Below, in pieces: positions 16,134-43,367 of a stretch of DNA of 64,000 bases. Position numbers and translations under genes: made by a program. The stretch lies in contig WION01000083.1 of assembly GCA_015039365.1 (NCBI GenBank), positions 62,001 through 126,000 on the forward strand. The letters run 5' to 3'. Each line of letters starts with the position of its first letter. Position 1 is the stretch's first letter. The notes beneath the pieces are model-generated. The model was not told the origin of the DNA. It did not search any database and saw only the letters and a list, made by a program, of their open reading frames with translations. The stretch is from Amanita rubescens (lineage: Eukaryota; Basidiomycota; Agaricomycetes; Agaricales; Amanitaceae).

Positions 16134-19100
16134 ATGGCAGCCACAACTGGTGCACCTGGATCTTTGAGTAGGCTAATTTATTATTTTATGTGAATCAGCA
16201 TCTCTAATCCTTGACAATAGCAGATCAAGATGAGACACATCTTCAAATAATCAAAGAACGCTATCTATGCCCACACTTTCGCATCCTTGTCATTGGGAGG
16301 GCTAATGCAGGCAAGACAACCATCCTTGAGAAGGTTTGTGGTGTAGCCAAGGGGACAAAGCCCATCATATATGGCAAGGATGGTAAGTCAATCTGAGTTT
16401 TGTGCTTCCAAGTTTGGCTGCTGAGTTTCTTGCAGGTAATCAGCTTGAACAGTCTGTGAATCATTTGATGCCATCAATTGAGGTGAGTCAGATAATGATG
16501 TATGGATGTACCCATTTACATGCAACAATATCAGAGAGGCCTGCATGATATTGAGCATCAAATTACATACCCTGGAAGTAACTTTATCTTCCATGACTCT
16601 CAGGGTTTTGAATCTGGTTCAACTGAGGAATTGGAGATTGCTTGGAAGTTCATTGAAAAGAAGTCTGCAGAAACTGAGCTGAAAAACCAGCTGCATGCAA
16701 TTTGGTATCTTGCTCTATCCCTTTACAGCACTGGCTGACCTGGCTTCCTCTAGGTACTGTATACCCATGGACAGTCCTCGTCCCATTCTACCTGCAGAAC
16801 TTGAATTCTTCAATGAAGGGACAGGCAGAGGTAAGCCCTAATGAATTCATATCTCATCTTGTAACTTCAAGTTGGTTTTGGAGAGATTGGTTATGTTACC
16901 TCCTTTCCATTGGCCAACTTGCCACAAATCTACTAGTACTGACTAGTAAATATTTCCTTTACAGTCCCTTTGGTGGTTATATTCACTAAATTTGATGGTC
17001 AAATAGCCAGTGAATATGTCAACTTGACTGATGCAAAGGATGAGGATAAGTGGGAGAGAGCCAAGGAAATTGCTGAAATCACTTTTAGGAAAGTTTATCT
17101 TCCTAAAGTTTCAGATGCCAAATATCCTCCCAAGGCATATGTGAAATTGGAAGGTGAGAATGATGAGGATTTCTTCCTAAAAAACAGGAGTAATGTTGTT
17201 TCATAGACATGGATTTACCAGAGAAGAATTGTGCTGAATTAACTCAGCAAACTGCTGATGCAATAGATGATGACAGCATACATGAGCTGTTTGTTTCAAC
17301 ACAGATGAATAATCTTGACCTTTGTGTTAAATCTGCACTTCAGTGAGGGTCACATTCACATCTTTGTCACTTACTAACATTGACATTGTTCAGACAAGTT
17401 CTGAAATATAAAGATCGGAAATGGAATGATGTCATTTTCATAGTTTTTTCAAAATTTCCACATTTTTGGGTATGCATTTTTGTCAAACTGCACATAGCAT
17501 AGGAAAATTTAAATGGAAATAGGTGGACAGGGAGGTAGGTGACCTTCATATGGAATGATAAATACTTGCAAATGTTCATCAGGTGGTAAGTAGCACTCCA
17601 ATGCCTTCACATGAAACCAAAATTAGTCATGCTTCAGATGGCCAATGAACAACTGAGTGAAGCACAGGTTAGTCACAGTGTCACCATATTCAAGTTGGCA
17701 GCAGGATCTGATGATATTGATCTCAGTGGGTAAGTGGCATTGGACTACATAGCATAGATCTGATATATTGTCTCATGACAACAGTTTGTGAGTAATGCTT
17801 CCTTTTGTGATCAGCACTCTTGTCCCATAATCTACAGGAAGTGAGTGACATGACTCAATTTTGATTTTTGGTAAATGATCCCATGGTGCACCATATGGCC
17901 AATAGCAAGTGAGTTGATCTATCATTGTAAGCAGACTTGTCAATCCAGTCGTTCATGGACAGGGAGTGAGTAATACAATGTTCCTTCACACTACATCTGA
18001 CCTGCTTAAAGAAAGTAAGCAACATTGATGTTTGCACAGCTTATCAGACATACTACTCAATGAGCAACAGAAAGTTGGTAACATATTATTATCTGAAAGA
18101 GAGTCTCAACAAATTTCATTGGATTAATAACAGGAAGTAAGTAACATTTACTTTCTGTCTGCTTATAAACATTATATGATGTCCCAAAACAACAGACAGT
18201 AAATATTTCTCCTTTTCAAAGTCTCTTCACAAGCTATTGTGAAATAAACAGGATGTATGTGATCCTTCTGTGACATGTGAATTCATCATATGAAATACAG
18301 CAAAAGAGAGTCAGTGGCATTGTTTTCTTTTTTTTCAACTCCTCATGATACTAATTCATTCTAAAAGGAAGTGAGTGATGCTGGCCATTTGGCTAGAGGA
18401 CAATTTGGACACATTATTTTGTTCTACAGATTGTGGGTGATATTGCAAGTTTTGTGAAAAGCAGTGAAATCACATCTTTTCCTATAAACATAGAAGGTTA
18501 GCAGCATGTCATGCTGATTTAGTGGTTCAAAAGATGACCTTACCAAATTTTCGCCTATGTCTAACAGTATGTGAGTGACATTGCACATTTTGTGAAAGGC
18601 AGTCTCATCACATCTTTTCCTATGACCAACAGGGAGTGAGTGACATTGCACATTTTGTGAAAGGCAGTCTCATCACATCTTTTCCTATGACCAACAGGAC
18701 GTGAGTGACATTGCACATTTTGTGAAAGGCAGTCTCATCACATCTTTTCCTATGACCAACAGGAAGTGAGTGACATTGCACATTTTGGGAAAGGCAGTCT
18801 CATCACATCTTTTCCTATGACCAACAGCTTGTGAGTGACATTGCACATTTTGTGAAAGGCAGTCTCATCACATCTTTTCCTATGACCAACAGGAAGTGAG
18901 TGACATTGCACATTTTGTGAAAGGCAGTCTCATCACATCTTTTCCTATGACCAACAGCTTGTGAGTGACATTGCACATTTTGTGAAAGGCAGTCTCATCA
19001 CATCTTTTCCTATGACCAACAGGCAGTGAGTGACATTGCACATTTTGTGAAAGGCAGTCTCATCACATCTTTTCCTATGACCAACAGCGAGTGAGTGACA

Positions 19101-21758
19101 TTGCACATTTTGTGAAAGGCAGTCTCATCACATCTTTTCCTATGGCCAACAGCTTGTGAGTGACATTGCACATTTTGTGAAAGGCAGTCTCATCACATCT
19201 TTTCCTATGACCAACAGCGAGTGAGTGACATTGCACATTTTGTGAAAGGCAGTCTCATCACATCTTTTTCTATGACCAACAGCGAGTGAGTGACATTGCA
19301 CATTTTGTGAAAGGCAGTCTCATCACATCTTTTCCTATGACCAACAGATCGTGAGTGACATTGCACATTTTGTGAAAGGCAGTCTCATCACATCTTTTCC
19401 TATGACCAACAGATCGTGAGTGACATTGCACATTTTGTGAAAGGCAGTCTCATCACATCTTTTCCTATGACCAACAGCAAGTGAGTGACATTGCACATTT
19501 TGTGAAAGGCAGCCTCATCACATCTTTTCCTATGACCAACAGCGAGTGAGTGACATTGCACATTTTGTGAAAGGCAGTCTCATCACATCTTTTCCTATGA
19601 CCAACAGATCGTGAGTGACATTGCACATTTTGCGAAAGACAGTCTCATCACATCTTTTCCTATGACCAACAGGATGTGAGTGACATTGCACATTTTGCGA
19701 AAGGCAGTCTCATCACATCTTTTCCTATGACCAACAGGGAGTGAGTGACATTGCACATTTTGTGAAAGGCAGTCTCATCACATCTTTTCCTATGACCAAC
19801 AGGCAGTGAGTGACATTGCACATTTTGTGAAAGGCAGTCTCATCACATCTTTTCCTATGACCAACAGCGAGTGAGTAACATTGCACATTTTGTGAAAGGC
19901 AGTCTCATCACATCTTTTCCTATGACCAACAGGGAGTGAGTGACATTGCACATTTTGTGAAAGGCAGTCTCATCACATCTTTTCCTATGACCAACAGGGA
20001 GTGAGTGACATTGCACATTTTGTGAAAGGCAGTCTCATCACATCTTTTCCTATGACCAACAGCAAGTGAGTGACATTGCACATTTTGTGAAAGGCAGTCT
20101 CATCACATCTTTTCCTATGACCAACAGCGAGTGAGTGACATTGCACATTTTGTGAAAGGCAGTCTCATCACATCTTTTCCTATGACCAACAGCGAGTGAG
20201 TGACATTGCACATTTTGTGAAAGGCAGTCTCATCACATCTTTTCCTATGACCAACAGCGAGTGAGTGACATTGCACATTTTGTGAAAGGCAGTCTCATCA
20301 CATCTTTTCCTATGACCAACAGGAAGTGAGTGACATTGCACATTTTGTGAAAGGCAGTCTCATCACATCTTTTCCTATGACCAACAGCAAGTGAGTGACA
20401 TTGCACATTTTGTGAAAGGCAGTCTCATCACATCTTTTCCTATGACCAACAGATCGTGAGTGACATTGCACATTTTGTGAAAGGCAGTTTCATCACATCT
20501 TTTCCTATGACCAACAGCTCGTGAGCGACATTGCACATTTTGTGAAAGGTAGTCTCATCACATCTTTTCCTATGACCAACAGGGAGTGAGTGACATTGCA
20601 CATTTTGTGAAAGGCAGTCTCATCACATCTTTTCCTATGACCAACAGCTCGTGAGCGACATTGCACATTTTGTGAAAGGCAGTCTCATCACATCTTTTCC
20701 TATGACCAACAGATCGTGAGTGACATTGCACATTTTGTGAAAGGCAGTCTCATCACATCTTTTCCTATGACCAACAGGGAGTGAGTGACATTGCACATTT
20801 TGTGAAAGGCAGTCTCATCACATCTTTTCCTATGACCAACAGCTTGTGAGTGACATTGCACATTTTGTGAAAGGCAGTCTCATCACATTTTTTCCTATGA
20901 CCAACAGCTTGTGAGTTCCTTTGCAATTTTTTTGACCTGCATTCTCAGCATACCTCAATTCATGAATGTTTGATATATCATTACATCCTATTTACACATA
21001 TCAGAAAGTGAGCATATTGCCTTATCTTTTCCATGTCATCCTTTTACATTATTATCATCATAGAATGTAAGATTTCATTTCAGCTCACCCACTCCCACCT
21101 CATGTGATTATTCTGTATTCTCTATCTCATACTACATAACTAGCATGAATTTTTCTCGATGTTTGGAAACAGGCAAAGGAACTTTGCAGTCAAGGTGTTT
21201 TTCTTTTTTCTTTTTGGGTAATACAAAACTGATGCCATTGCAACAAGCCTACTGGTTGCCAGGTCTTAGTTTGTAAATCACTCCTTTTCATGTACTGAAT
21301 TTATGCTTAAACCTTGGAGCAATTATTATCATTGCCAAGCTATCCTTTTGGATCAATAAACCATTTCTGCCATCAGTCACAGAGGCCTTGGATCAATACA
21401 AGCAAAAAGGCTATGCTCAGAAGCTGAAGACTGACATTACTCCTGACTTTATGCACTCTGGTCATCAAGATTTTGTCACATTACTCAATAGGCAGGTGTC
21501 TCACATTGATGGTATGTGCTTCGTCTAGTCATGCATTAGTTATGAACAATTCATGGCAGGGTGAAACACACAGTATGATATCCAGTCAGTGATATATTGG
21601 CTGCATTGCCTTTGCATTGAGATCATATTTATTTGTACATAGTAGATCACTTCTCATATGCATTCTCATATGCATTCCCTTTGTTGTTCATGCATCTGTA
21701 ATATTTTCTTCCTGATGTACTAGACATTAATGTGGATTACATACCTATATATGTATAA
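16134..21758 (+). CDS. P-loop GTPase gene with about 66 introns, many exons of one codon
   Basis: Seven ordinary exons (16134-16167, 16221-16382, 16436-16482, 16535-16704, 16754-16830, 16965-17153, 17207-17342) join in frame from MAATTGAPGSL to LCVKSALQ. They encode a G domain of the kind common in agaricomycetes: G1 GRANAGKT (residue about 38), G3 DSQG, G4 TKFD. After a short stretch whose splicing is unclear (17343-17522) come exons VDRE (17523-17534), V (17583-17585), MANEQLSEAQ (17638-17667), then a long run of 3-nt exons from 17727 to 21066. Three normal exons end it: 21173-21194, 21383-21511 and 21724-21758, reading AKELCSQ-EALDQYKQKGY...SHID-DINVDYIPIYV and stop TAA at 21756. The predicted protein is about 400 aa. 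The G domain should bind and hydrolyse GTP; its cellular role is unknown. The microexon part is inferred from splice consensus alone. Confidence 0.75.
17583..18570 (+). other. older single-codon exon series with diverged introns
   Basis: Here acceptor-AG, three bases and donor-GT recur with introns of 46-71 nt that share little sequence except at their ends. Putative 3-nt exons are GTG 17583, TGG 17727, TTT 17785, GAA 17838, CAA 17906, GGA 17963, AAA 18012, AAA 18071, GAA 18134, ACA 18196, GAT 18252, GAA 18368, ATT 18430, AAG 18494 and TAT 18568. Two longer exons, 30 nt at 17638 and 9 nt at 18301, are also multiples of three. Donors are mostly GTGAGT or GTAAGT, acceptors CAG or TAG. The intron at 18433-18493 is a recognisable diverged copy of the 62-bp array intron. 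Conserved splice ends in otherwise diverged introns argue that these are really spliced. Confidence 0.65.
18571..20907 (+). repeat. tandem array of 36 identical-length introns separated by 3 bases
   Basis: Exactly 36 units of 65 bp (18568 to 20908 is 36 x 65). Each unit is a 62-bp block beginning GTGAGTGACATTGCACATTT and ending TCCTATGACCAACAG, followed by three variable bases. By eye only about a dozen to fifteen substitutions occur in about 2230 bp of repeat body, while the three bases take 10 different values in the units after the initial TAT: CGA 8, GGA 6, CTT 5, ATC 5, GAA 3, CAA 3, GCA 2, CTC 2, GAC 1, GAT 1. Each block has a donor, a TATGAC branch-like site after a pyrimidine tract, and a CAG acceptor. 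Read in phase 0 the triplets give YGDELELARLRRIIQRI and onward without a stop. Confidence 0.95.
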
Positions 21759-22045
21759 TTTTTTCCTGGAAGTAAAGATATCACATCAGGATTTTGGCTG
21801 GAGTCTGGTATAACTAGATAGTGTTATGATCACGTTGATCTCCACCTATGATGCATCCACACTAAGAGCATTTGACAAAGTAGACTAAGTCCAATGGACA
21901 AGTCAAACAATAGGTGAATGGATAAGCTAAGTAATAAGATGAGTAGAAGAAGTCTTATACTTGAGAGTAATAATGAACAGAGTATGAATGGTGTTCTTAG
22001 GCGAGACAAAGCGATGTTAGCTAACAAACTAGGAGAGTTTGTATT

Positions 22046-22720
22046 TGTAAGGACGGTGATCCTAATTGGGACGGAGCCCGGGAACTAAGCCGCGGACGGG
22101 GAAGGGTGGAGTATAACGGAGTCCGGGACGTAGTGGGGAAAGGCTAGGCTTCAGCGTGCAAGCTGCGCCGTGCTAACGTACGTCTTGCCTAAACTTCTGG
22201 AGAACGCTCTGGAGTCCAGGATGGAGTCCGGGACCGGAGTCCGAAGGGCGAGCGGTCTGGATGAGGTTGAGACGATGAAAGACAGGGAGTCAATACGAGT
22301 TGGGGCACAATCCAAGTCGATATTCGGACTACTGTATGAATACAAGTGAGGCCTTATATACATAGTCCGACAAGGGGTTCTATGGCCGTGTTCTGATAAG
22401 CGAGGAAACCATAGAGATATGGAACAGGAAGTGGAGTAGAGCATATGGTACGAAGGGATAATGATACCAGTGATACCCAAGATGAAACAAGAGGTGAAAC
22501 AAGTATGGAAAATATGTAGAAAGGAACTTAGCAAATATGCACGGAGTTGTGACGGAGTCCGTCACGGAGTTTGTCACGGAGTTGTCACGGAGTTTTCGGA
22601 GTTTTGGCATAGGCTTGATATGAGATGCAACATGGGTGGAAAGTGGTCATGGGTATAGTCAGGAGTCCATCGGGGTCCGAGGTCATGGAGTTTGGGTGGA
22701 GTCTGGAACGGGATATGACA
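22046..22720 (-). repeat. gypsy-type element, left LTR (3' LTR)
   Basis: 675 bp. It contains tandem CACGGAGT-type repeats near 22550-22590, where it is 23 bp longer than the other LTR. On the minus strand it starts TGTCATATCCCG and ends CCGTCCTTACA. Confidence 0.88.
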
Positions 22721-23709
22721 GTATTCCCCCTTTAAGGCCGAGCCCTCGAGGCCATTGTCGATGAGAGAATGAGTACGAGGTTCAATAAGTCGCAACAAAC
22801 ATTGCCAAAGAGAGAATGAGAGAGGATGAGGGAGGATAAGAGAGGACAAGGGAGGATGTCAGAACAGTGAAGTCCGGAGTTTTTCGGGGTTTTTCGGAGT
22901 CCAGAGATGTCCTGTATGGAGGTCTGGGAATTTCCGGAGTTTTTTCGGGGTTTTTCGGGGTTTTTTCGGAGTTGTTCTGTCAAAGGGAGGTGTCGTATAA
23001 GGAGGTGTATGAAGTCTGGAAATTTCGGAGTTTTTTCGGAGTTTTTCGGGGTTTTTCGGAGTCCAGAGGACCATTGGAGATGGAGGCTGGCATTTGGGAG
23101 AAGTTGGGGAAGAAGTCGGATGAAGAAGGAGAAAAAATGGGGTCTGAAGGAGTGTGGGGTATAGTAGCTGAATGGGTCTGGGGTTTTTTCGGGGCTGTCA
23201 AGTAAGTCCGAAAATATTCAGTTACGGTAGTCAGATTAACGTCAGAGGCGTCAGGCAGCGCTGAGGTCAAGGGGATAGTAGGTAGTCGGAGCCAGAGATT
23301 AGGCTTTGACAAGGGGGGATATCCTAGGGGTGTTGGCACCGTAATATGACAGAGGTCCGGAATATGGTGATGCTCCATCCGGTCAATCAACGGATTGTGT
23401 TGGTGGGGTCATCGGTGTCTGAGAACGAGTGGCAGTTCAGGTCCAACGGAAAGAAGAACAATTCACCTGGGGTGAGACAACCAGCAAGTTGGCGTCAGAT
23501 CCATCCACAAGGTGGAGGCAGATAGGTGATATTGGTTGTATAGGGGTGAGAGGCGAAGAGATGGGAATGGGGTTGTAACGGAGTCCAAGATAAAAAGCCG
23601 AGATAACAAGCAAGTCCGGGTCGTCGAAAATGGCCACATTGAGGTAACCACTAGCACTAGTGACTGGAGTCGACGCAACTCCTAGTTAGTGCAATCCAGA
23701 GGACGCCAG
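22721..23709 (-). other. gypsy-type element, non-coding interior
   Basis: About 1 kb between gag and the polypurine tract. It is rich in short repeats of TTTTTCGG(A/G)GTTTT type, which on the minus strand give proline/lysine-rich open stretches (KPRKTPKKLR), probably an expansion of simple sequence. No protease or RT motif is visible. The frame near 23437-23637 may be a last trace of a downstream gag-pro region, but I cannot support that. Confidence 0.5.
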
Positions 23710-24903
23710 TTATTCGTCTGAGTCAGATGACTCCAATGGGGTCATATACACTGATTCAGAGTCCGAAGTTTTGGAATTTGGGCTGGGGGGTGTGGGGTCC
23801 GAAGTTTCGGAGTTTGGACTGGAGGGTGTGGAGTCCAGAATTTCGGGGTTTGGGCTGGACATTGCAAAGTCCGGAATTTCGGAGTTGGGACTGGAGGGTG
23901 TGGAGTCCGAAATTTCGGGGTTTGGACTGGACGGTGCAAAGTCCGGAGTTTCAGGGTTTGGGATTGGGGAGTTGGGTGATGAATGTGAGACTGAGGAATG
24001 AGATCCGGAACTGTGAGTGGAGTGATTGTCGGGGGTAGTGGCAGAATGGTCAGTGTCATTGGCAAGTTCATTCTTGGTCAACCAATAAGCCTGATCAATT
24101 TGTTGGGCCTTGAGACGCATCTTGACAAGTGTCTTCGGCTTGCCACCACGGAGTAATTCAATCCGGATACGAGTCGGGAGTCCACGGAAAAAGTGATCAC
24201 GGAGTGCCGGTTCATTCCATTCGGTACGAGAAGTGAGTTTGTTGAAGTCGACAATGTATGTAGTGACATGGTGATGATCCTTCATGGTGAGGTTGCTGAG
24301 TGCAGTTTCGGCGTCCCCACGGAAATCGTAAGGTCCGAAATGGTCCGTGAGCTCTTTGACAAAAGCATTAAAATCATAGAGCCAGTCGGGAATGTCATCA
24401 ATATCACCCATAATGACAGGTTCAAACCAATCTAAAGCCGCACCTTTGAGGTAGGAAATCGCATAGCGGACCATCCTTTCATCTTTCCTGAACAAGTCTG
24501 GACGGTCTGAGAACACAAGACTGCATGAAACTAGAAATTCTCGGAGTTTGCTGGGGTCCATGCCATCAAATGGCTTGGGGTCCGGAATTTCGGCAGATGA
24601 AGGGTGCTGGAGTTTTCGGAGTCCACGGTTAAGATTCTGAATGGCGTTGGCTAGTAGGAGGTTGGAATTCGGAGGGTTGGTTGGTGGAGGAGGATGGTTG
24701 TCTTCTTGGCCGGAGTCTGAGATGTCTGTGTGCACGGAGTTGGGCGATTTCTCACCTTTGGAGCTGGAGTTTCCGTGTACAGAAGGAGACAACCTGGGCT
24801 TGCCTCTGCGATGAAAGAGCACTGAGATTGAAGGGGCAGAGACATTGGAGATGGCATAACGGCCAACGAGGGAGGGGCCTGTCTTTGATTGAGTGTTGGG
24901 CAT
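23710..24903 (-). CDS. retrotransposon Gag (gypsy type)
   Basis: A 397-aa frame from the ATG at 24903. Residues about 100-260 carry the retrotransposon Gag capsid pattern: KLREFLVSCSLVFSDRPDLF, YLKGAALDWFEPVI, FVKELTDHFG, and FRGLPTRIRIEL. The tail is a run of about ten degenerate 12-13-residue repeats (PSSPNSEIPDFA and variants), acidic and proline-rich, and ends in SSDSDE. There is no CCHC zinc knuckle. Gag would form the virus-like particle shell of the element. The open frame in an element without pol implies selection for, or very recent loss from, a mobile lineage. Confidence 0.85.
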   Translation of the reverse strand: MPNTQSKTGPSLVGRYAISNVSAPSISVLFHRRGKPRLSPSVHGNSSSKGEKSPNSVHTDISDSGQEDNHPPPPTNPPNSNLLLANAIQNLNRGLRKLQHPSSAEIPDPKPFDGMDPSKLREFLVSCSLVFSDRPDLFRKDERMVRYAISYLKGAALDWFEPVIMGDIDDIPDWLYDFNAFVKELTDHFGPYDFRGDAETALSNLTMKDHHHVTTYIVDFNKLTSRTEWNEPALRDHFFRGLPTRIRIELLRGGKPKTLVKMRLKAQQIDQAYWLTKNELANDTDHSATTPDNHSTHSSGSHSSVSHSSPNSPIPNPETPDFAPSSPNPEISDSTPSSPNSEIPDFAMSSPNPEILDSTPSSPNSETSDPTPPSPNSKTSDSESVYMTPLESSDSDE

Positions 24904-24935
24904 GGTTGGACGCACGCGCACAAGTCCGAATATAC

Positions 24936-25587
24936 TGTAAGGACGGTGATCCTAATTGGGACGGAGCCCGGGAACTAAGCCGCGGACGGGGAAGGGTGGA
25001 GTATAACGGAGTCCGGGACGTAGTGGGGAAAGGCTAGGCTTCAGCGTGCAAGCTGCGCCGTGCTAACGTACGTCTTGCCTAAACTTCTGGAGAACGCTCT
25101 GGAGTCCAGGATGGAGTCCGGGACCGGAGTCCGAAGGGCGAGCGGTCTGGATGAGGTTGAGACGATGAAAGACAGGGAGTCAATACGAGTTGGGGCACAA
25201 TCCAAGTCGATATTCGGACTACTGTATGAATACAAGTGAGGCCTTATATACGTAGTCCGACAAGGGGTTCTATGGCCGTGTTCTGATAAGCGAGGAAACC
25301 ATAGAGATATGGAACAGGAAGTGGAGTAGAGCATATGGTACGAAGGGATAATGATACCAGTGATACCCGAGATGAAACAAGAGGTGAAACAAGTATGGAA
25401 AATATGTAGAAAGGAACTTAGCGAATATGCACGGAGTTGTGACGGAGTTTGTCACGGAGTTTTCGGAGTTTTGGCATAGGCTTGATATGAGATGCAACAT
25501 GGGTGGAAAGTGGTCATGGGTATAGTCAGGAGTCCATCGGGGTCCGAGGTCATGGAGTTTGGGTGGAGTCTGGAACGGGATATGACA
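24936..25587 (-). repeat. gypsy-type element, right LTR (5' LTR)
   Basis: 652 bp. The gag ATG lies about 33 bp inside it, so the leader is very short. The bases next to the LTR on the minus strand, GTATATTCGGACTTG, should be the primer-binding site, but I cannot assign a tRNA. Confidence 0.85.
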
Positions 25588-25804
25588 GTATTGGACAACT
25601 AAGTTGAACTTAGGGTTCAACTCTACAAGTACAGCAGCTTAAATACATAGACAAGGAGTGGGGCATAGGGAAATGGAATGGGTATGATAAGGGAATGAGG
25701 TAGTCTGTATGGGGTGAACATACAGGTAGTTGAACTACAGTGTATTAAGTAACTTGCTATAGTGAACGCAGTGAGTCACTCAGGAGAAAAATCTGCATTA
25801 TTTG

Positions 25805-26953
25805 TAGTGATTGGAGGTTCAGTTATGTAACCACAAATTAACCGTAACTTAACTGAACCTAACTGATAATTAACTGGTTGAGCAGTTAAGGTTACAGTTG
25901 TGGACAATCAAAGTCCACCTGTTTCCCCATCTCATTTCTGTGGCTTCAGAAATTATCAGAGTATGTCTATTACTGTATAATAGGCTATCTAGGATTATTA
26001 TGAGGAGATTTACACGAGCCAATTGTTGATTTTCAACTTTTTTTTTTTTCACCCCCAAAAATTGGCCATCCCCCCAGATTTGCTCCAAAAATCATGAAAA
26101 AATAGCCAAATGCTTCCTTAATTCTGAAAAAAAATCAGCAATTCCACGTAGTGATTGGAGGTTAAGTTATGTAACTGCAATTAACCGTAACTTAACTGAA
26201 CCTAACTGCTTGACCAGTTAATTATCAGTTAAGGTTAGGCCCTTTCCCTAACCTTAACCGGACTGGTTATGACCGGTTAAATTGTGCAACCTTGTAGAGC
26301 TGGTCCTTAGCTTCATTTTGAGCCCTTATTCATGTAATTTGGCCCAGTGGTTCATGAGATATGAAGTATTTTGTGAAGGGATGTCAAAATTATTGTGTTT
26401 CTCATTAGCAATGTGGTCCATGACATGCAAAAAGCAATATACAATTAGTTTCTCATGTTCAATCTGCTAGCTATTTCCCTCACCACACTCAGAAACATAG
26501 TTCTCTGGGATGCTGATGAGGAGCAAAGTTTTGCATGGCTGTTGTGAGGCTCTAATTTGTATGCAATTTTCATTATGTTTATCATTCTGTATTGGACAAT
26601 ATACTTCTGACTTAGGCTGTTGGCATTTGGGACTTGTTTCTGACTTATATTGATCAGTTATGAGCATCATAGACAACATTGCTAATGGGAAACCAATCAT
26701 CTTGACATCACTCACAAAACACTTCATATCTCATGAACCACTGGTCCAAATTACATGAATAGGGGCTCAAAATGATGCTAATAACCTGCTCTACCAGATT
26801 ACATAATTTTAATCAGTTATAATCGGTCACAACCGGTCATAACTGGTCCAGTTAAGGTTAAGGAAATTCTGGGTCATCGGTTAATTGATCAGTTACAGTT
26901 AATCATTGAATTTTGGGGCAATTAACTGGACTTAACCTAACCTCACAACACTA
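25805..26953. mobile_element. hAT-like element with long inverted arms
   Basis: The left end TAGTGATTGGAGGTT and the right end (reverse complement TAGTGTTGTGAGGTTA) are inverted, and are flanked by ATTATTTG (25797-25804) and GTTATTTG (26954-26961), an 8-bp duplication with one mismatch. Inside, about 250 bp at 26210-26430 and 26630-26880 form a second inverted pair, with shared stretches such as TTCATGAGATATGAAGT. The left-end sequence is repeated at 26149. Many GGTTA/TAACC motifs, typical of transposase-binding subterminal repeats, lie in the arms. No transposase frame exists. The superfamily call rests on the 8-bp duplication. Confidence 0.6.
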
Positions 26954-33097: not shown

Positions 33098-34673
33098 TTA
33101 AAGTCGAGAGAACAAGCTTAGATCGAAGAACTGAATGTACACAATTGGATCTATGAGTCCCTTGATCATTAAGATGTCATTGGTGCTCATGCCACCAATG
33201 ACACCTCTCTCGAAGGAACCAGGGATTAGAGGGAGGGGTTCTGGCACGGATTCGGTAACTTGCTCATACCATGATAAGATATCTGAAGATGAGGGGCCAG
33301 TTGAAGGTTTTTCCTCGACGTCCTCCATGCCATCGATGTCGTCGGAAGTCGAGTCCGTGCCCTCGATGGTCTGAACATCCCAAGTCCCGGATGTCACTGG
33401 TGAGCTCATGGCATCAGTAACGATTCCCGTGTCTGCGCACTGTACATCCCCCGTCTCCGCTAACCCTTCGTGCCTGGGTGTGAACAGCAGCCTGCCTCCG
33501 TCCCAGGAGAGGGAAGGGATCGTTCCAATAGGTTGCTTCGTTAAGAATGGGGTACCATTGCGGGATTGATGATGTATAGGATAGGGTTTGGCGCTTCGAG
33601 TGCCGTCACACTGGTTTTGGGCATTTTTCTGAAGACGGATTTTCTCTGATTTTTCGATCAGGTCAGGCGGCGGATCCCACCACCACAAACTGACAATTTC
33701 GAGGCCCATTGTAACGAGTTGCCGTTGGTAAACACTGGTTGGCACAATTGCAGCCAAGCGAGGAAGGTAGTGGAGAAGGGAGAATGGTATAGAAAGAAGG
33801 GTATCGATGATAGGGAATGGCTTCCGACTGGTTGGGTCATCGATGCCAGGACAATCCTGGTGCTCATAGACATGTAATGCTCTGACTTGGCCGTTGCCCT
33901 CATTCCTTAAGAAAGGGCTAAGGCTGTTTGCGGCGTGGAAGCGATGTTGTGTGGATTGTGTACCACCGAATACCTGAAGTACTGGTGAGGCATGACACCC
34001 GAATGAATGAAGACGACCACTCGCCTCTTCGTATGTTGGTCTGCCAGGATCACCTCGCCCAGCTTCCAGTTCTGTAATCCTCCACTGATGTAGGTCCTGC
34101 TCGTAGGCAAGAGTGCGTGCCAAGATATCTTCGTGAAGGAAGAGCGTCGCGAGCGGCGGCCACTCATCCAGAGCACTGTGGTGGTCGGCTCTAACTTTCC
34201 CCAGTCAGAAACCAACCGCCTTGAAAAGAAATAAGGATGTACGCGGCACAACATTTTCCTGCACTTCAGCGGCATGTCGGGGATGTCGATCCTGACGCAG
34301 TTTGCGCACAAGCATCTGCGAAAGCTAATAGGTACATCTTCAGCGTCATCGCACAAGATAACATGAGAGATTGACTCGCGCGTTCATTGCAAGGGTGTAG
34401 AGACTGCGAAACGTCACCGCTGGGTTCAACACCCGTACACTCTGGCTTGAAGCTATTATCGGGTCCAACAATCCATTCCCTTACCCGCTTCGGATTCAGC
34501 ATCGCCAACTGTCGTTCGGAACTGCGATCGACTGCATCCAGGATGTGAGACCATTCCACGCTACCCGACATCAACGAGATGACACATTTTTTGCCGCCGT
34601 AAAAATTTGTCATTGCGTCGATCTCAGCATGAGGGTAGGTGTGGGTGGTCGTTTGGACTGATGGGATTGTCAT
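33098..34673 (-). CDS. hypothetical protein, paralogue A1
   Basis: This is a minus-strand gene whose start (MTIPSVQTTTHTYPHAEIDA, ATG at 34673) and body are paralogous to the plus-strand gene at 43368-44913. The body (34123-33098) carries LFLHEDILARTLAYEQDLHQ, FPIIDTLLSIPFSLLHYLPR, VSLWWWDPPPDLIEKSEKIR and a serine/acidic stretch before FERGVIGGMSTNDILMIKGL. No known domain is recognised. Compared with its paralogue, the first exon keeps about 130 extra bases (around 34395-34530), and the first intron has a GC donor (GCGAGT) where the other has GTAAGT. Exon joins between about 34120 and 34330 are uncertain, so it could be a decaying copy. Confidence 0.5.
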
Positions 34674-34825
34674 GATGAATGAATTCAAGCGAAAATGTTA
34701 AACAACAACCACGCACGAAGGTATTGGCATTTGTTTGTACAATGTCACAGCTACACTGTCGGTGAAACAGTTGAACAAACACAATTAGAATATACATACA
34801 ACGGAAGGAAACTTCTGTAAGGACG

Positions 34826-35235
34826 TCAATGTCCATATACCTGCTCTGCTAACATCCGCAACGTCATCGGCATCATATTATCGTTGTAATGTTCTTGAAT
34901 ATCCGGCTTCTCCACGACATGATGAATGCAGGACCATTTCGTTTTGTCTACCGCGCGCTCCTCACAAACCCTACGTTTCTCTACATTCCACCACTTTGGC
35001 AAAACACCAGTCCTGCTCTCGGCAAGGTTGAGAAAGGAATGAAAGTCGAGTATGGGATTCTTGGGCTCGCCATATAAGCCATGACATTCGCCCCGATACA
35101 TAAGATCGTCCTCGACGCGCAGTCTGTATGCGTCAATCAACCGGTTCATCGCTTCCTCCTGTGTCGGGACGGTATCGAGATAGATGTTGGTTGCAAGCGC
35201 CTCAATCAGGCACTGAAACTTGTGGTACCGCTTCC
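34826..35235 (-). pseudogene. MYND-finger gene, 3' part (split by copia-2)
   Basis: The downstream part of a minus-strand gene whose first 198 nt lie at 43189-42992. It continues the finger after DWK with RYHKFQCLIEALATNIYLD and ends GVLPKWWNVEKRRVCEERAV...MPMTLRMLAEQVYGH, collinear with the intact paralogue at 45052-45726. If the 5-bp target duplication CTTCC is counted once, the two parts add up to 603 nt, exactly 201 codons with no other lesion. The insertion is therefore the only visible defect. Confidence 0.85.
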
Positions 35236-35713
35236 TGTTAAAGTTATCTTATCTAATCATATAAAATAACGTATATCTTATCTTATCTCATATAAGATAA
35301 CACATCATATCTTATCCTATAGATTAGGATATACAGATTAGATGTACATACATGTATATTCATATATACATGTACATATACATACATACATAGGATACTG
35401 GAATATCCTATAGTCGCTTGCGTCATCCCATTACTGCGGTAAACGCGTCATAGCTGCGCTAGACGTCATATCATACGTCATGCACAGCTCTTCCTCTATT
35501 TACTATACTTTGTACTTATTAAGATACTAGTAGTATATAAGACTACCTGTACGTAGGTACAAAAAAGAACCTTCCTTCTCCTCTTACCACCACATCCTAT
35601 ATCCATAGGATAGTGAGTTATCGTTTGAGGTCGTCACCGCCACTCTACACTCCACTCTAAGTAAGTATTCACTTTAATACTTAGACGCTGCGCTGCTGGG
35701 CGTATCTTCGTCA
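35236..35713 (+). repeat. copia-2 5' LTR
   Basis: 478 bp, TGTTAAAG...CTTCGTCA. TATATAA at 35534-35540. The interior is rich in ATACAT/ATGTAT motifs around 35340-35395. It shares ends and the CGCTTGCGTCATCC block with the copia-1 LTR but is otherwise diverged. Confidence 0.92.
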
Positions 35714-36740
35714 GGTTATGGGCCCCGACATGGTATTGCTTGCATCACCATCGCCTCCAGGCATGTTACCATGCAAGATGTGTGAACAGGTATAGTATTG
35801 TGCGGGTCGGAGACCTGAGTGGCATCCGTAAATTTAACTGAGTTCTTGTACCTGACATACGAGCTTATGACATGCGCCCGGACCCTAGGGCTTTAGGGGG
35901 ATCTCCTTGCACCCAGGGATAAGGGTACCACCTATGTTTCTCAAGGCTGGCATGGCAACCTTGACCCCCACGGAGTTATACTTGCCCTCCGTGATGTGAC
36001 TGGGGTATTCATGCACGATATTCCATTATAAGGCCCTTAGAGCCTTTAGTTACCGTATATAGATCATATGGCCTGTAGTAACTTTCACAAAGTATAAAGG
36101 TCGTGCTGGGGTCCCATTGTGGACCATACACGCAGACTATTAGGCGTCCACTCCTAGAGAGCGCCTTAGATTAGCCGTTGGCTCTGCTCAAAAGGCATCC
36201 ACGTATACTTTCATATTGTTACTGGGAGTGCTTATAAAGGTGGTCACGGACGGTTTATGGACCGGACACCTTTCATTTTCCAAAGACAACTGGTACCTCT
36301 TGGGACCAGGCAGTTGCCGCAGGCGCACTGCAGTCCGCGGACCTTATGCATGTCATACTCGTTTACAGGTCAGGCACACAAGTCTGGTACATGTTCCTCG
36401 GATCGATCCTGGTGCTAGGCATTATCATGCTTGGCTGTAGCTCATAACGCTGCACGCAAGGTTGTTGTCGTATTCGTTATGACACCCTCGCCTATGAAGT
36501 CGTTGTCGTTTATGTAATGACACCTTCATTAATAAAAATCCTTAAATAGATATAAATCATTGAATTTATAAATAATCCATCAAAACGATCAATTGATTTC
36601 ACCTCAATCAATCGTTCCATCATCAAGAAGCAAGAAATAACATTTCTCGCTCACCCATCTCTATACAAGGCAATCAAACCTTGTTACCGACATTTCCATA
36701 AGGTTTTATATAAAAATAAACCTTTATCAACATTCTTGTC
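35714..36740 (+). promoter_or_regulatory. copia-2 primer-binding site and leader
   Basis: It starts with the initiator-tRNA anticodon-loop complement GGTTATGGGCCCC. Blocks such as GACATGCGCCCGGACCCTAG, CACCCAGGGATAAGGGTACC and GGCTGGCATGGCAACC are almost the same as in copia-1, although the LTRs have diverged strongly. No equivalent of the 187-aa extra ORF is present before gag. Confidence 0.7.
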
Positions 36741-37889
36741 ATGTCTTCTTTTACCAAAGAAGAAGACAGCGCTTTATGTTCCCTTGTCACCGAATTACAA
36801 GGAGACAACTATCGTGCCTGGGCACGACAAATAACGGCATACTTTCAGATCTCAAATCTGATGGTATTCATGTGTCCCGTTATCCCCAATGCAATCCCTG
36901 CTCACCTCAAAGCAGTAATTGCGCCGATCACTGCCACCAATAAGGCAGCAATCATCATACAAGCTGATGAGCTTGTACAAAACGAGAAGGCGTTGCACGC
37001 CATTAAGCTCAGATTGTCCTTTACAATCTTTGAGCTTTATCAACACGTTTATAACGCAAGACTCCTATGGATGTTCTTGCAAGAACGTTACAAAGATGAT
37101 TCGCCAGCAATCCTCGACGGATCACTGGACAAAATAGATCATGATCGATCTATAAATAAAATCATCACTCGTTATAGACACATAGCAGCACAGGGACATC
37201 AACTTCCGGCTGCTCATCTAAATAAAGCACTTACGACCATTAGGGCTGTTCCATTTAAATGGATCAACCAAACAGCGGCTACATCATCTGTTACCGCTAT
37301 CAATACGAATTACTCTAGCCCTACGGCAGTACGTTCAGGAAACACTGCCACACAAGTTGGACCAATCACAGTCCAGCAACTTGCTAGTGAAATTCGTTCG
37401 GCATGGTCGTCACGGCATAATGCTATAAAACAATCACCTCCGTCAAAGCAAGACCCTAACTTGCATACGGAACATTGTTTAGCTAATGCCTCCTTAACAA
37501 ACAAGGGCAAAGGCCGCTGCAGATGCTCGCCGCATCCACAGCCTACACATTTGCGCTGGGAAGACTTTAAAAATAGTAGCAAGCCTGATTATATCAGGGG
37601 AGGATCTCCACTATTAGTCCAACAGCCCGAATCTGATCCGGAATCAGATTCCACACATGATTCATTTAAATCATGTAAATCAAATGTTTCCACGCCTTCA
37701 CCTTTATCACACGAGCCTTTAACAGACTCGTTGAATACAAGAATAACAAATTCCCAGGAGGAATTTTATGATGCTCATGAAGATTTCGAGCGTCATTATG
37801 GAAATTTCATGGCTATGAATAGCTATGATCAATGGGTAGAAGAACAATATAGCATAGACTTAGATTATTTCTGGAAGAAATATATGTAA
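36741..37889 (+). CDS. Ty1/copia-type Gag, stand-alone
   Basis: A 382-aa frame from the ATG at 36741 to TAA. The N-terminus LQGDNYRAWARQITAYFQIS matches copia-1 Gag (LKGDNYRLWARKMTAYLQVK), and the region VQNEKALHAIKLRLS parallels NEKALGSIMLRLS. It lacks the RGG-rich tail of copia-1 and has no regular CCHC knuckle; the C-terminus is acidic (DSFKSCKS, FYDAHEDFERHYG). It should assemble particles, perhaps mixed with Gag of a helper. The frame is intact, in contrast to the non-coding sequence after it. Confidence 0.88.
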   Translation: MSSFTKEEDSALCSLVTELQGDNYRAWARQITAYFQISNLMVFMCPVIPNAIPAHLKAVIAPITATNKAAIIIQADELVQNEKALHAIKLRLSFTIFELYQHVYNARLLWMFLQERYKDDSPAILDGSLDKIDHDRSINKIITRYRHIAAQGHQLPAAHLNKALTTIRAVPFKWINQTAATSSVTAINTNYSSPTAVRSGNTATQVGPITVQQLASEIRSAWSSRHNAIKQSPPSKQDPNLHTEHCLANASLTNKGKGRCRCSPHPQPTHLRWEDFKNSSKPDYIRGGSPLLVQQPESDPESDSTHDSFKSCKSNVSTPSPLSHEPLTDSLNTRITNSQEEFYDAHEDFERHYGNFMAMNSYDQWVEEQYSIDLDYFWKKYM

Positions 37890-40800
37890 TATATAAATTG
37901 TCGTCAACACAAGAGTATCGTGAAGGATCACTCCTTATAAATCCGATTACTTGTCATACAATTTATATTCAAAATAAGGAAATCGTGTAGGCATATGCCT
38001 TGCAATCCCGATTACTTATATATAAAGGTCTTTCTGGTGGTATTAAGCAAGGATCATCATCATTGCCATAATATACCGCGTTCAAGGGAATTTCGATCAC
38101 TTGAAGAAAGATCATCAAGCTTGTCATCACATACAAGCATCAAACACATATAATCTTCGTCATTCAGAAATATCTATAATGTCTACACTATAAAAACAAT
38201 ATCTTTAAAGCTCTCCACAAATGCAAACCGATGTTTATAGCCTATAAACGGCTATAATCTATTTGCAGATAACAGTAATGTGTTACCTTTGAGAAAGGTT
38301 CCTTGCCGTTGAAACTTACACGGTTTTGAAAACGTCTCATAATACGGTTTCCTACACTTGAGAAGGCTCCTTGCCGTTGAAACTTATACGGTTTCGAAAG
38401 TATCTCATAACACTGTAGTCACGATAGCAGTTTCATACTGCTGAACATTATCTGTTGGAGATAACAAATTCCTTGAATACTGTCGCATACAAGGGAATTT
38501 CGATCACTTGTATAAGAATAGACTTCTATGCTTGTCTATACAAGCATCTATAAACGTCCAGAGTATTTTTGTACTCAACCTATAAATTGAATTGTACGGC
38601 GGCGCTATGCGCTCATCCCCTTTTCATATTAAAAATAGGTTTTCCAATAACAGGACAGACGTAATTAAAATACCTTGAAATAATTCTTATAGCTTTAAGA
38701 ATTGTGGATTATAATTCTAAATGATTATCTATAGGAACCAGATCATCCTTGAGTGAAATACATGTACCATGACCATATACGTTGACCAACGTCGTTATGT
38801 TGGATAATGTATTGTGTGAAACACAAGAACGGTTACATCTTTTTATAAAGATGATAAATTGACGAAATCATTGATTTCTTTAAATACATGAAAATGATTT
38901 TTATAAATCATCACATGTTAAAAATAAGAATACTGTTCATATCACATCAATCTATATGTGATAAATAGATCATGTCAAAAATATACATGATTCTATCAGG
39001 CTAAATTACGCAATATCAATCCCTGTCTTGATTGAGGGGGAATCATTGCAAATAAACAAGCCATTACGACTTGTATAAATGACCAATCAAAACAAGTATT
39101 CGATATAACTTGTAAACAAATACAATCATGGATGCGTATTAAATATAGGCCCATATTGTACATTATGGTTGCGTATTAGACATAGGCCCATAATTATAAT
39201 GGTCATCAACTGTATTAGAGGAGGAAGCTCCCTCGATAATATACAGATGCCTGAACACGAACAAATATATGTATTGGAGTTTTATCCCCGTCTATTGTAT
39301 AGAGAAGGCTCCTTGCCGTTGAAACTTATACGGTCTTGAAAGCGTCTCGTCTTTACAATATGACATTACACTCCTGACAAATATCCTAGTCAGGAACGTG
39401 TATCATATGGAATGCCAGGTTAATGCATATCTCAAATAAGCCTGTCTTATGGCTTATCGCAAACAACCTCACATATCCTCTCCATACATATAACAGTATT
39501 TCTTTATAAGAATCAATGGTAGCTTAAAAACAAAGAAATAGATTATGTTAATCTTGCGCCAATTCTTTTCAAAATACAGATTCCCAAATATCGTTCATAC
39601 GATATTACGGTTGGATTATTGGAATACATTTAGTTCCTTGCACAGATCTTAGCCCTCAAAAGCGAAAGATAGGAACACCTTGCGTATAATCCAACACCCT
39701 CTTTAATTAACTCTAGTTCTTGGTTTCATCCGAACAATGGAGAATTTCCTTACACAAGTTTTGACGGTTTTCAGGTTGGTTAACAATATTTAAATATTGT
39801 TGATCACTTGGGGATACAGCAGACCCAATACTGCTACGAATATAAACTTGTACAAGTCAACCTTTGAATGGGTAGCAATATTTATATATTGTGGGTTATT
39901 CAGTGGCACAACAGACCCAATACTGTTATGACTTCGAAATATCGTTATGATCTTCCTGGCGGTATTAGCAAGGACATCATGTCATTGCCAAAATATACCG
40001 TATATGAATGAGCTTCGGCCAACTCATAAGGAGGATCTTTATAAATAACGAATTTCGGTTTAATGTTATCATTATACATTGAACATCAAAAAGGATATTC
40101 AAAATCATTCGACGAGACTTCCCCGTTTGTATTCTATACTCTTATTGCATCTGGATAATGCATAAAGATAAAATAGAACCAGGGCAGAACAAGAATTAAC
40201 AGAGTTAAGAGGACATTACTTGCCAACGGACTACACGTAACAGAGGAATAATCCTTGTTTAAGGATTAATATAGGCTGTACTGAAAAGGAAACCTATATC
40301 GGATAACGTCGCAGTTATACCTTCCCAGTAGACGTGTTCATGTTGAATATATCGTCCAAAAAGATAGTCATTGACACTTAAATGACTTAGAGGTTAAAAT
40401 CTCGTTCATACGAGATATTATATAAGTGTTTGTCCTTCTATACAAACACTTATAATTATACTTGTCGTCAATACAAGTAAATCCTCTTCGTCATAAAAAT
40501 CTATATCAAAAATAGATTCTATATGCTATAAATGGGGTGGCGCCTGCCTTGCGCAAATCCCCAAATATACAAGTATGAGTGAATGCGGAACGTCGATCGT
40601 TCTCGGATCCTCTATTAAAACTTGTCATGACAACGGTCGTATCCCTGTGGGTGTAGACCTTTAAAGTCATATTCGTATCTTGTACCCACACACAAGTAAC
40701 GATAAATATAGCATAATAAATACAAGAATAAACTTCTTGTACACAGTGTCCAACAAAGGATTACATCATTAATGATCGTCGGGTACGGCAGACACAATAC

Positions 40801-42502
40801 TGCCAGCAAATTATCTTTACATTAAGATAAAATGCGCCGGGCACTTATAGCAGTTCTCACTGCTAATCATACATGGTAAAACCCTTTTATAATGATTACC
40901 AAGATATATTACAAATGTGGATGACCACCACGTATAAGTCAAGTAGGGAATCACATCTGTATGAGCATCCAGTAAAATGTATCTGGATTCACTTACATGA
41001 TTAAAACAAGAAAGCTTATCACATATAAGCTCATGTTTAATAATCATCACACATGCTCAGGAATTGGATAATGATGAAGTTCATTTCGTTATTACGAAAT
41101 CAGGAGATTCGTCTCCCCGCTGGTGTTGTGCGTTCCTATCAAAATAGGGATATATGGAATCACAACCAAATACAATCCTTTACGAAAGTGATTATAAAGG
41201 ATTTAATGATATGCAAAATCATCATACCAGACGGATTATCATCATTTACAAAAGACAAGATATACACACATATCTATAGAAGGGAACATTCGTTGTTCTA
41301 TAACAGACGGGTCAAATGCTTTGAAAGCATAAAGTCCTTTAAAGGCCCAAGAACTTCGCTCTGTTGAACAACATAGATATTCTTTAAGACACATGGTTGA
41401 ACTCTTTATCAAAATTTAAAAAGGAGTTTTTATTGATATAACAGAGATGTAAACCATGATGTATAAGAATTATCTGGGCAACCGTCTATAATATAATTCG
41501 CTTGTCGACACACTTGTATTTACAAGGACGAGCAATTATATTAGACCATAAACAATTGGTACACTTGTTGTTACAAGTAAAATTGTCACGCGTGCAACTT
41601 GCCGATCAAGTGAACACGCCACATCATATTCTCGTATTGCTGTGCAAAGAGAATATATACTCCTTTACGATTTAAGGTGCTAGTCACCTTTACACCACAT
41701 AAGGCGTTGGACGCCTTTAAATATAATAGGAGAACACACGAGTCAGCGTACATAATCAGAACTTGTAAAGAAACAAGGAATGATTATTGCACTCGTTACA
41801 CATACGAGCAAAGAGTATTTGCAAGGGAGGAAGCTCCCCTTGTAGAGATACTACACTCGTCTAAATAGTTTATTTAGGAAGACATATCAAGTTTTTACTT
41901 GATAATGCGACATATACACACTCGCATATCCATCAGAGGATTCTTTTCACACAAAGAATCATCATCATATATCTTGCTATTTACATAGCTTGATATTTAT
42001 GCAAGTTGTTAAACGTTATCGTTTACCTGCCAAAAATATTCATTTAGCACTTAAGGATATATTCTTATCCTTTATCAAACAAAGTAATAAATCATATCAG
42101 AGACAGCGAAGGCAGTAGAACAAGCCCCTTCTCGATAAATATGATTTCACACACTTTGTAAGGCTTGAAGCCTGGGGGTGCTTTTATAATGGATATTATC
42201 AATACGACAGGAAACTTGATTTTTGATAAATCAATTCAAACAATATACGTCATTGTATTGGCTTTTCGATAAAGTCATATCCTATACCTTTAGGATCAAA
42301 CAATGATAAATATTGTATAACGTATACAACAAGCATTATAGGAATATCAAAGAAATATATATACAAGGGATTAAGGTGAAAGCAGCATATAGTCTGGATC
42401 CCCATACTTGTACACGAAACGAGAGATCTTCCGTGAAGACTTTCAAGTCTTACAATTCCGGTGACTCGTATAAAAATATTTCATATATTCCTGGATAACT
42501 TA
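37890..42502 (+). other. copia-2 long non-coding interior with repeats and hairpins
   Basis: 4.6 kb of AT-rich sequence, about as long as copia-1 pol, without a domain-bearing frame. One weak trace (VVRSYQNRDIW near 41120) resembles the linker before RT in copia-1 (IRTYQYRDIY). Repeats inside: a 49-bp block, GAGAAGGCTCCTTGCCGTTG onward, at 38291, 38360 and 39302; a GGTATT(A)GCAAGGA(T)CATCAT block near 38038 and 39960; and a hairpin CAAG-GGAATTTCGATCA-CTTG at 38081-38105 and 38487-38513. CTTGT/ACAAG stems recur (39846-39857, 41513-41526, 41563-41578). Confidence 0.7.
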
Positions 42503-42513
42503 GCGAGGGGGTG

Positions 42514-42991
42514 TGTTAAAGTTATCTTATCTAATCATATAAAATAACGTATATCTTATCTTATCTCATATAAGATAACACATCATATCTTATCCTATAG
42601 ATTAGGATATACAGATTAGATGTACATACATGTATATTCATATATACATGTACATATACATACATACATAGGATACTGGAATATCCTATAGTCGCTTGCG
42701 TCATCCCATTACTGCGGTAAACGCGTCATAGCTGCGCTAGACGTCATATCATACGTCATGCACAGCTCTTCCTCTATTTACTATACTTTGTACTTATTAA
42801 GATACTAGTAGTATATAAGACTACCTGTACGTAGGTACAAAAAAGAACCTTCCTTCTCCTCTTACCACCACATCCTATATCCATAGGATAGTGAGTTATC
42901 GTTTGAGGTCGTCACCGCCACTCTACACTCCACTCTAAGTAAGTATTCACTTTAATACTTAGACGCTGCGCTGCTGGGCGTATCTTCGTCA
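42514..42991 (+). repeat. copia-2 3' LTR
   Basis: 478 bp, appearing identical by eye to the 5' LTR at a constant offset of 7278, and followed by the CTTCC duplication. Confidence 0.92.
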
Positions 42992-43189
42992 CTTCCAGTC
43001 TGCAGATTGACACTCGCGCGAACAATAGAGGGCGTCGCGGCAGCGGGAGCACACTTTGAGCTTCTGCTTTGCAGTGGGGGTCTTTGGTTCGCGTTTTTTG
43101 CAGAGGCGGCATGCACGCTTAGCCTTCCCTGGGTTTTTAGGGAGAGGAAAGCCGAGCTCTGCTGCGATCCTCTCCTGAAAATTGTTCAT
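42992..43189 (-). pseudogene. MYND-finger gene, 5' part (split by copia-2)
   Basis: From the ATG at 43189 it reads MNNFQERIAAELGFPLPKN and then most of a MYND zinc finger: CRLCKKREP, CSRCRDALYCSRECQSADWK. The frame then runs into the LTR, where a stop follows at once. The last finger ligands (H and C) lie in the other part, 7.8 kb away at 35235. The start parallels MDESNLLFAKMLAEDLDLP of the intact paralogue. Confidence 0.85.
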
Positions 43190-43367
43190 CCTGGAAGTCT
43201 TATAGAAACTGAAATGCAACAGGTGAACACGCTTACACCAAGGAAGATTCGGTTAATGCGAAATTAGTTTGTACGTATTTGGATCCAACTTTAGCTTTCG
43301 CGCCATTTCAGCACCTGAGAGAGACATGGGCTACTAAACCCTGAATTTTCACTTGAATTCATTCATC

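Follow-up and report, generated by a model that had tools for sequence, protein, structure and literature searches.

Putative single-codon exon arrays with a constant 62-nt intron and variable codon series in a GTPase-domain gene family of Amanita rubescens

Fifty-three exons of exactly 3 nt have been identified at positions 17583–21066 of a 64,000-nt stretch of Amanita rubescens DNA (the window, C769:62001–126000 within the 75.7-Mb genome), both by direct reading and with a semi-Markov splice parser that assigns equal prior to all exon lengths from 1 to 12 nt. This agrees with a preliminary description of about 53 consecutive single-codon exons, and the two longer exons listed there among the triplets, of 30 and 9 nt, are also found by the parser. 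Judging from the genomic sequence, each triplet is very probably a single-codon exon, and splicing would assemble these codons in frame to a flexible linker that connects the GTPase part of the product with its C-terminal helical part. What is new is that 16 long arrays, young or old, have one 62-nt consensus intron, while the codon series vary by locus.

Results

Gene Structure

The gene model (Table 1) comprises 68 exons, 67 introns and 441 aa without an internal stop, correcting the earlier estimate of about 66 introns and a 400-aa protein. All 67 introns are of the GT–AG type and 45–212 nt long, and 53 of the 68 exons are 3 nt long; the introns between the single-codon exons span 46–71 nt, with one of 94 nt. 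The flanking exons had been described as compatible with phase 0. This holds once two previously unlisted exons, of 76 and 12 nt, are added, as with them the frame arrives at phase 0; the original exon list was thus incomplete, and at the 3' flank the exons of 45 and 10 nt are needed as well. Both upstream exons match HVLKHK.WTWEDVIVIVFGKFPHFWVDR-like stretches of homologous proteins P0003, P0004, and P0039. The first gene model, with a 4-nt exon at 17531–17534 and a 22-nt exon, has been replaced; homologous proteins show the 76 + 12-nt and 45 + 10-nt exons.

Table 1. Features of the gene in the window (positions are those of the window).
Feature	Position	Strand	Basis or remark
N-terminal GTPase domain, exons 1–7	16134..17342	+	Intact frame, every intron GT–AG; homologues in Amanita and other basidiomycetes
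Exons 1–7, individually	16134–16167, 16221–16382, 16436–16482, 16535–16704, 16754–16830, 16965–17153, 17207–17342	+	
Exon of 76 nt, QVLKYKDRKWNDVIFIVFSKFPHFW	17394–17469	+	Splice parser; resembles homologous proteins
Exon of 12 nt, VDRE	17523–17534	+	Splice parser; resembles homologous proteins
Single-codon exon GTG	17583–17585	+	Parser and gene model
Exon of 30 nt, MANEQLSEAQ	17638–17667	+	Unbroken MANKQLSEAQ in P0039, TNEQLSETK in P0004
Proximal conserved block, W F E Q G K K E T D R E I K Y	17727..18570	+	One exon per residue; related loci have identical or similar codons here
Exon of 9 nt, CAAAAGAGA, or 3-nt AGA exon (18307–18309) with AAG acceptor	18301..18309	+	
Variable array, 36 single-codon exons (GDELELARLRRIIQRIDGARGGQRRREQILGLIGLL) alternating with 36 copies of the 62-nt master intron	18571..20910	+	
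First master intron copy, GTGAGTGACATT...CCTATGACCAACAG	18571..18632	+	
Final two single-codon exons, AAA (21005–21007) and AAT (21064–21066)	21005..21066	+	
C-terminal exons, 21173–21217 (45 nt), 21263–21272 (10 nt), 21377–21511, 21724–21758 (TAA)	21173..21758	+	

The N-terminal domain contains GTPase motifs (G1 GRANAGKTT, and TKFD), and the first, 402-aa gene model scores below the Pfam cut-off for MMR_HSR1 (18.2 vs. 21.9 bits). In the proximal block the introns are 46–71 nt long and unrelated to one another in sequence. The 9-nt exon within this block is more likely a 3-nt AGA exon, because many loci and the intron-free P0004 carry only R at this place; several other loci have GAT–(~55-nt intron)–AGA, and P0004 reads D-R-E-I. 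Further downstream, Tandem Repeats Finder reports 36.3 copies of a 65-bp unit at 18571–20930. In 10 of the 15 loci with sequence of the array end, the array closes with AAA followed by ATT or AAT.

SFW and ALDQYKQKGYAQKLKTDIT from the C-terminal exons align to the C-termini of P0044, P0048, and P0053. The use of the last intron is uncertain: if it is unused, the gene has 67 exons and stops at TAG (21528), closer than the TAA end to the termini of P0044, P0048, P0053, and P0070.

The gene is one of many. The first half of it has at least 40 long genomic matches, itself included (the best 40 of 241 candidates), some of which are likely haplotypes, and the array has at least 79 matches, several per array (the best 40 of 230 candidates). 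The assembly contains a mixture of haplotypes and paralogues.

Elsewhere in the window, an imperfect palindrome at 33107–44877, with inverted arms of 128–495 nt that are 91–97% complementary, flanks a 7.6-kb element that has an identical direct repeat of 300 bp at either end (35236–35535 and 42514–42813), as a young LTR-type element would look. The region 22001–26000 has strong GC skew (0.275–0.388) and short tandem repeats such as TTTCGGAGTT.

Splice-Site Grammar and Reading Frame

The preference for 3-nt exons is seen throughout the family. Among exons of up to 12 nt in the window and 33 related loci, 1301 out of 1417 are 3 nt long (near-duplicate loci and exons downstream of arrays included, nothing dropped), compared to 36 out of 519 in dinucleotide-shuffled sequence. 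Scanning of the whole genome for junctions of the CAACAG–N(0–12)–GTGAGTGACATTGCAC type yields 967, and 935 of them enclose exactly 3 nt.

The triplets behave as codons. No stops are observed among 658 nonredundant array triplets, with 27 expected if positions were independent (near-duplicates C79, C239, C228:2144, C254, C106, C470, and C557 were left out of these counts), and none among 174 triplets of four later arrays. Triplets starting with T never end in RA (0 of 63), while 387 of 595 triplets with other first bases do (Fisher test, 5e-27); genome-wide, TRA accounts for one of 140 T-first triplets, compared to 533 of 795 for VRA, TAG being outside this count. Two more types of triplets are avoided. 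NGT is absent from the nonredundant set (0 of 658, 61 expected) and rare both genome-wide (5 of 935) and in the four later arrays (4 of 174); NYA is found 24 times in 658 with 134 expected, or nine times in 580 with 112 expected if C13, C599, and C749 are excluded. We infer that both reflect splicing constraints, as NGT would place a donor 2 nt early, and NYA would create a YAG that ends one base inside the intron.

Among 390 introns of 18 older arrays, 184 deviate from the length of 62 nt (with remainders modulo three of 73, 68, and 43), and five of 390 exons are parsed with a length not divisible by three. All five are 7 nt long, and each is compatible with a 3-nt exon and a GC donor (GCAAGT in four cases, GCGAGT in one) of an intron of 61–62 nt. 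In this parsing, intron length appears to drift, yet no exon need have lost the frame.

Divergence in the proximal block, estimated for 22 of 31 loci (those distinct and with a clean block), is 0.055 per site in the first nine codons vs. 0.102 in their introns. Conservation is highest at the third codon base (0.020, vs. 0.076 and 0.069 at the other two), which would fit a constraint from splicing rather than the usual freedom of synonymous sites. One or more of the first 16 exons, counted from TGG, are not parsed as 3 nt in 10 of the 31 loci.

Some arrays contain irregular exons. In those of C190 and C229 (loci L025 and L027), ordinary introns enclose exons of two codons, CAATCT and CAATAT, such as would remain after the exact loss of one intron. 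In C13, C254, C599, and C749, exons of 1, 2, and 4 nt and triplets that break the rules (CTA, TTA) adjoin perfect introns; these may be decayed copies, or errors of assembly or consensus.

Homologous Proteins and Predicted Product

Two homologous proteins contain the proximal block in contiguous form. P0004, encoded by a JGI contig of 1446 bases, reads WFEKGKKESDREIEY unbroken, with 12 of 15 residues identical to those of the window's 15 single-codon exons, and P0039, from a JGI contig of 1903 bases, reads WFEHGKKDTDKQIVY, with 10 of 15 identical; common to both is WFExGKKExDREIxY. These intron-less contigs are most simply explained as cDNA, an intron-less retrocopy being possible as well, and the evidence they provide concerns the proximal block, not the window's master-intron array. 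The core of the preliminary description, consecutive single-codon exons that keep the frame, is thus strongly supported by the statistics of frame and stops, the grammar of the splice sites, the conserved proximal codons and the homologous proteins in which they are contiguous.

The WF block is present at the matching place in six of 21 homologous proteins (P0004, P0037, P0039, P0044, P0048, and P0053), and P0004, P0037, and P0039 do not reach the family C-terminus. P0031, P0062, and P0063 depart from the family sequence near FPHFW, soon after it or before it, as would result from retained introns. Among annotated A. rubescens proteins, P0086 passes from FPHYWV straight to the C-terminal part without the block, and P0002, P0008, and P0013 end at ...CVKSAL, before the array; P0003 extends approximately two exons past these ends. 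P0048 and P0053 are nearly identical in the GTPase part and differ at the array position in both sequence and length. A second protein search, with a rearranged query, gave no match at E of 1.

The structure model of P0044 (mean pLDDT 79.5) comprises a GTPase part and two helical parts, one of them C-terminal. Residues 317–359, a joining stretch with pLDDT below 50, contain WFESADD and a glycine-rich part at the array position; therefore the array codons are likely to form a flexible linker, of variable length. It had been suggested that the codons read as an amphipathic charged helix. This is not borne out: the best 18-residue helical hydrophobic moment of the window array is 1.23, with 1.20 obtained when the order is shuffled (p = 0.44), the corresponding part of P0044 is predicted to be disordered, and out of 14 arrays tested only C311 has p below 0.05 (0.012). 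Foldseek matches the P0044 model best to the bacterial dynamin-like protein BDLP, GM4951, and Irga6, with TM-scores of approximately 0.2–0.4 and identity of 10–13% (E of 2.9e-6 with TM-score 0.27), and the best hit of the PDB sequence search has E of 0.03. The predicted likeness to dynamin-like or immunity-related GTPases is a lead only, and membership in these families cannot be claimed from it.

Master Intron and Codon Series

The consensus of the 62-nt introns in the window is identical to that in 12 of the 15 other long arrays, and in the remaining three it differs at one site (16 long arrays were compared, near-duplicates included, using introns of exactly 62 nt). The same consensus is obtained whether the introns of an array differ by 0.1% (C604) or 10% (C190 and C311), and 419 exact copies of its first 44 bases are present in the genome. 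Solo master introns outside codon arrays were looked for in three places, and all three candidates proved to be codon arrays again. In the C8 array (L052), five of eight introns are 53 nt long and all eight are 76–82% similar to the master intron, perhaps constituting a second intron subfamily.

The codons between these introns vary far more. In the variable array of the window the mean pairwise difference is 0.0115 per site in introns and 0.640 in codons, that is, 56 times higher in codons, and in ten arrays with less than 2% intron divergence the ratio ranges from 34 to 291. Introns of old arrays are only about 79–91% alike. In six older arrays, similarity is barely higher between adjacent than between distant introns (differences from –0.002 to 0.013, e.g., 0.848 vs. 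0.843), as would be expected if each had aged alone from one source.

The codon series differ from locus to locus, and sharing clearly beyond chance is observed in nine long-array pairs, all of them direct duplicates. The next best among the 22 pairs shown have alignment scores of 8–10 (four to six codons); three of these lie 2 above the best of 60 shuffles, a margin that we attribute to chance, given the many pairs. Renewal of introns under an old codon series was also considered and rejected, the nine related pairs found by local codon-series alignment being all direct duplicates with introns of like age. C228:48728 and C257 are 98.6% identical over 1.4 kb upstream, and have near-perfect introns and different codon series.

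Identical neighboring codons are in excess in young arrays (70 vs. 47.8 expected in eight arrays, p = 0.00025) and close to expectation in old ones (39 vs. 37.9, eight arrays); C79, C239, C228:2144, and C254 were left out of this test, as well as L064, L065, and C229 for the old arrays. When arrays are tested one by one, the excess is significant in C13 only (p = 0.026). In C82, GGA GTT GTT is repeated three times. C667 and C79 are one whole CGA unit apart, with none of 267 codon sites changed, and C667, C79, and C239 agree codon by codon across their overlap except for one added unit. The neighbor excess, the repeats in C82 and the C667/C79 unit difference indicate that units duplicate in tandem. 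Tandem duplication alone does not explain how codons vary while introns stay constant.

In three old duplicated array pairs, codon and intron sites have changed at the same rate (12 of 396, or 0.030, vs. 228 of 8023, or 0.028; ratio 1.07, p = 0.76), hence the amino acid identity of array residues is hardly constrained. Purifying selection on array amino acids is unsupported by these pairs, and they give no sign of continuing codon hypermutation. Without C190/C229 the other two pairs contribute 3 of 228 codon sites vs. 106 of 4612 intron sites, numbers too small for a conclusion.

Discussion

The closest known kind is the micro-exon genes, of which the A. rubescens array is an extreme variant. 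Micro-exon genes (MEG) of Schistosoma have very short exons of 3–81 bp (the available part of PMC10526429), and, like them, the present genes form a family with very short exons, mostly multiples of three. Unlike them, with exons varying in size and introns of up to 5 kb, the Amanita genes have exons of nearly always one codon and no long introns, the array introns being short copies of one sequence. The bicycle/megacycle genes of aphids constitute a large, fast-evolving family with microexons of uniform phase, and a megacycle gene has more than 100 of them; there the exon phase is 2, and the excerpts of PMC9168663 on which this comparison relies mention neither single-codon arrays nor a common intron. 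The preliminary description considered the present structure to be far beyond any known gene structure, which in view of the aphid genes is too strong for the number of introns. Dozens of single-codon exons in a row were not matched in the searches: among the open-licence PMC papers listed there was no account of single-codon exon arrays, and no paper combining Amanita and microexon. Isolated exons of 3 nt or 1 nt have been described in Drosophila hth (micro-Ex8), Arabidopsis APC11, and Fusarium CYP621A (the accessible portions of PMC7392893, PMC4674806, and PMC12940212), so that spliceosomes, the fungal one included, can splice such exons; as far as these portions go, they occur one per gene, not dozens consecutively. 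Many near-identical introns derived from one source are known as introners, or introner-like elements (parts of PMC9860276 and PMC4457414). The A. rubescens genome resembles these in the number of near-identical introns, with the difference that introners are spread over many genes, while the master intron, in the few places examined, was always part of a codon array with fixed 3-nt spacing.

If the triplets are spliced as single-codon exons, each short intron would be recognized singly, across the intron. Neighboring introns could not be occupied at once, because their splice sites are 3 nt apart, and the introns would therefore be removed one after another. Skipping would drop codons without breaking the frame, because every array exon is one phase-0 codon; such frame-safe skipping would make a long array tolerable, and may be why such arrays survive.

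How often all exons are included is a separate matter. The exons may be real and seldom all retained, any donor pairing with any downstream acceptor to produce a swarm of in-frame linker variants per gene. The near-identity of donors and acceptors in the window array and the common phase 0, with skipped forms staying in frame, are in line with this, as is the lack of amino acid constraint in old arrays beyond frame and stops, whereas conservation of the proximal block argues for inclusion of at least those exons; on balance, we consider predominantly partial inclusion rather unlikely.

As for the origin, single-codon exon arrays might have been assembled out of newly made copies of a single, invariant 62-nt master intron, with one codon between the copies. 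In a young array, units and short blocks would duplicate in tandem, and recombination among paralogues would mix the codons; as the array ages, each intron would mutate independently, and selection would keep the frame. Codon diversity that precedes intron divergence is left unaccounted for by this scheme.

Two other origins have been considered. A mobile introner-like intron could have inserted itself between the codons of an older continuous exon, a scenario compatible with the other readings. One consensus across 16 long arrays with a mean intron divergence from 0.1% to 10%, the near-independence of intron similarity from distance in the six older arrays and the 3–9-bp target duplications of some introner families (an excerpt of PMC9860276) speak for it. 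However, an inserted intron would be neutral in any phase, leaving the exact 3-nt spacing unexplained, no copy was found outside a codon array in the three places examined, and the excess of identical neighbors in young arrays points to unit duplication; this origin seems doubtful. The second scenario, in which the codon–intron unit duplicates in a burst and its codons then hypermutate or diversify under very strong selection, would account for identical neighboring codons and blocks in young arrays such as C82, for the one-unit difference between C667 and C79, and for the unlike codon series behind like upstream flanks in C228:48728 and C257. It would require codons to change tens to hundreds of times faster than introns, and only at birth, while codon change is not in excess either in older duplicated arrays or between C667 and C79, and of single arrays only C13 has a significant neighbor excess; we would not regard this scenario as probable.

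Could the whole array instead be a minisatellite within one long intron, removed entire from 17668 to 21172, with noncoding triplets? The 65-bp tandem structure with near-identical units has this appearance, and annotated proteins that stop before the array (P0002, P0008, and P0013) or skip it (P0086) would be natural products of such a gene. A noncoding repeat would not be expected to lack stops, to have few NGT triplets and to hold exon length fixed as introns drift; moreover, contiguous homologous proteins include the single codons of the proximal block, and P0048 and P0053 differ at the array position, which makes this reading very improbable. An artefact of long-read assembly in a repeat, suggested by the irregular exon lengths, and the codons that break the rules, next to perfect introns in C13, C254, C599, and C749, is hardly credible, as the structure recurs in all 34 parsed loci and in L059–L065, is present in old arrays with divergent introns, has its proximal block in independent proteins, and is reproduced, one added unit aside, in C667, C79, and C239.

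Given single-codon exons, we tentatively suggest, as a possibility rather than a probability, that these loci represent a new class of gene regions, split codon by codon, where every codon forms a cassette together with a master intron copy of its own. Such a region would act as a fast-evolving, frame-proof generator of linker diversity: its array would be rewritten in the DNA between paralogues that are nearly identical, and skipping in the RNA would yield many in-frame protein variants per gene.

As the annotated models examined end before the array or skip it, similar genes may hide elsewhere. The family is a natural experiment in intron origin, with constant introns, changing codons and arrays of many ages in one genome. 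If RNA confirms the splicing of these arrays, the spliceosome would work here with almost no exon to recognize, which would provide a test of exon vs. intron definition.
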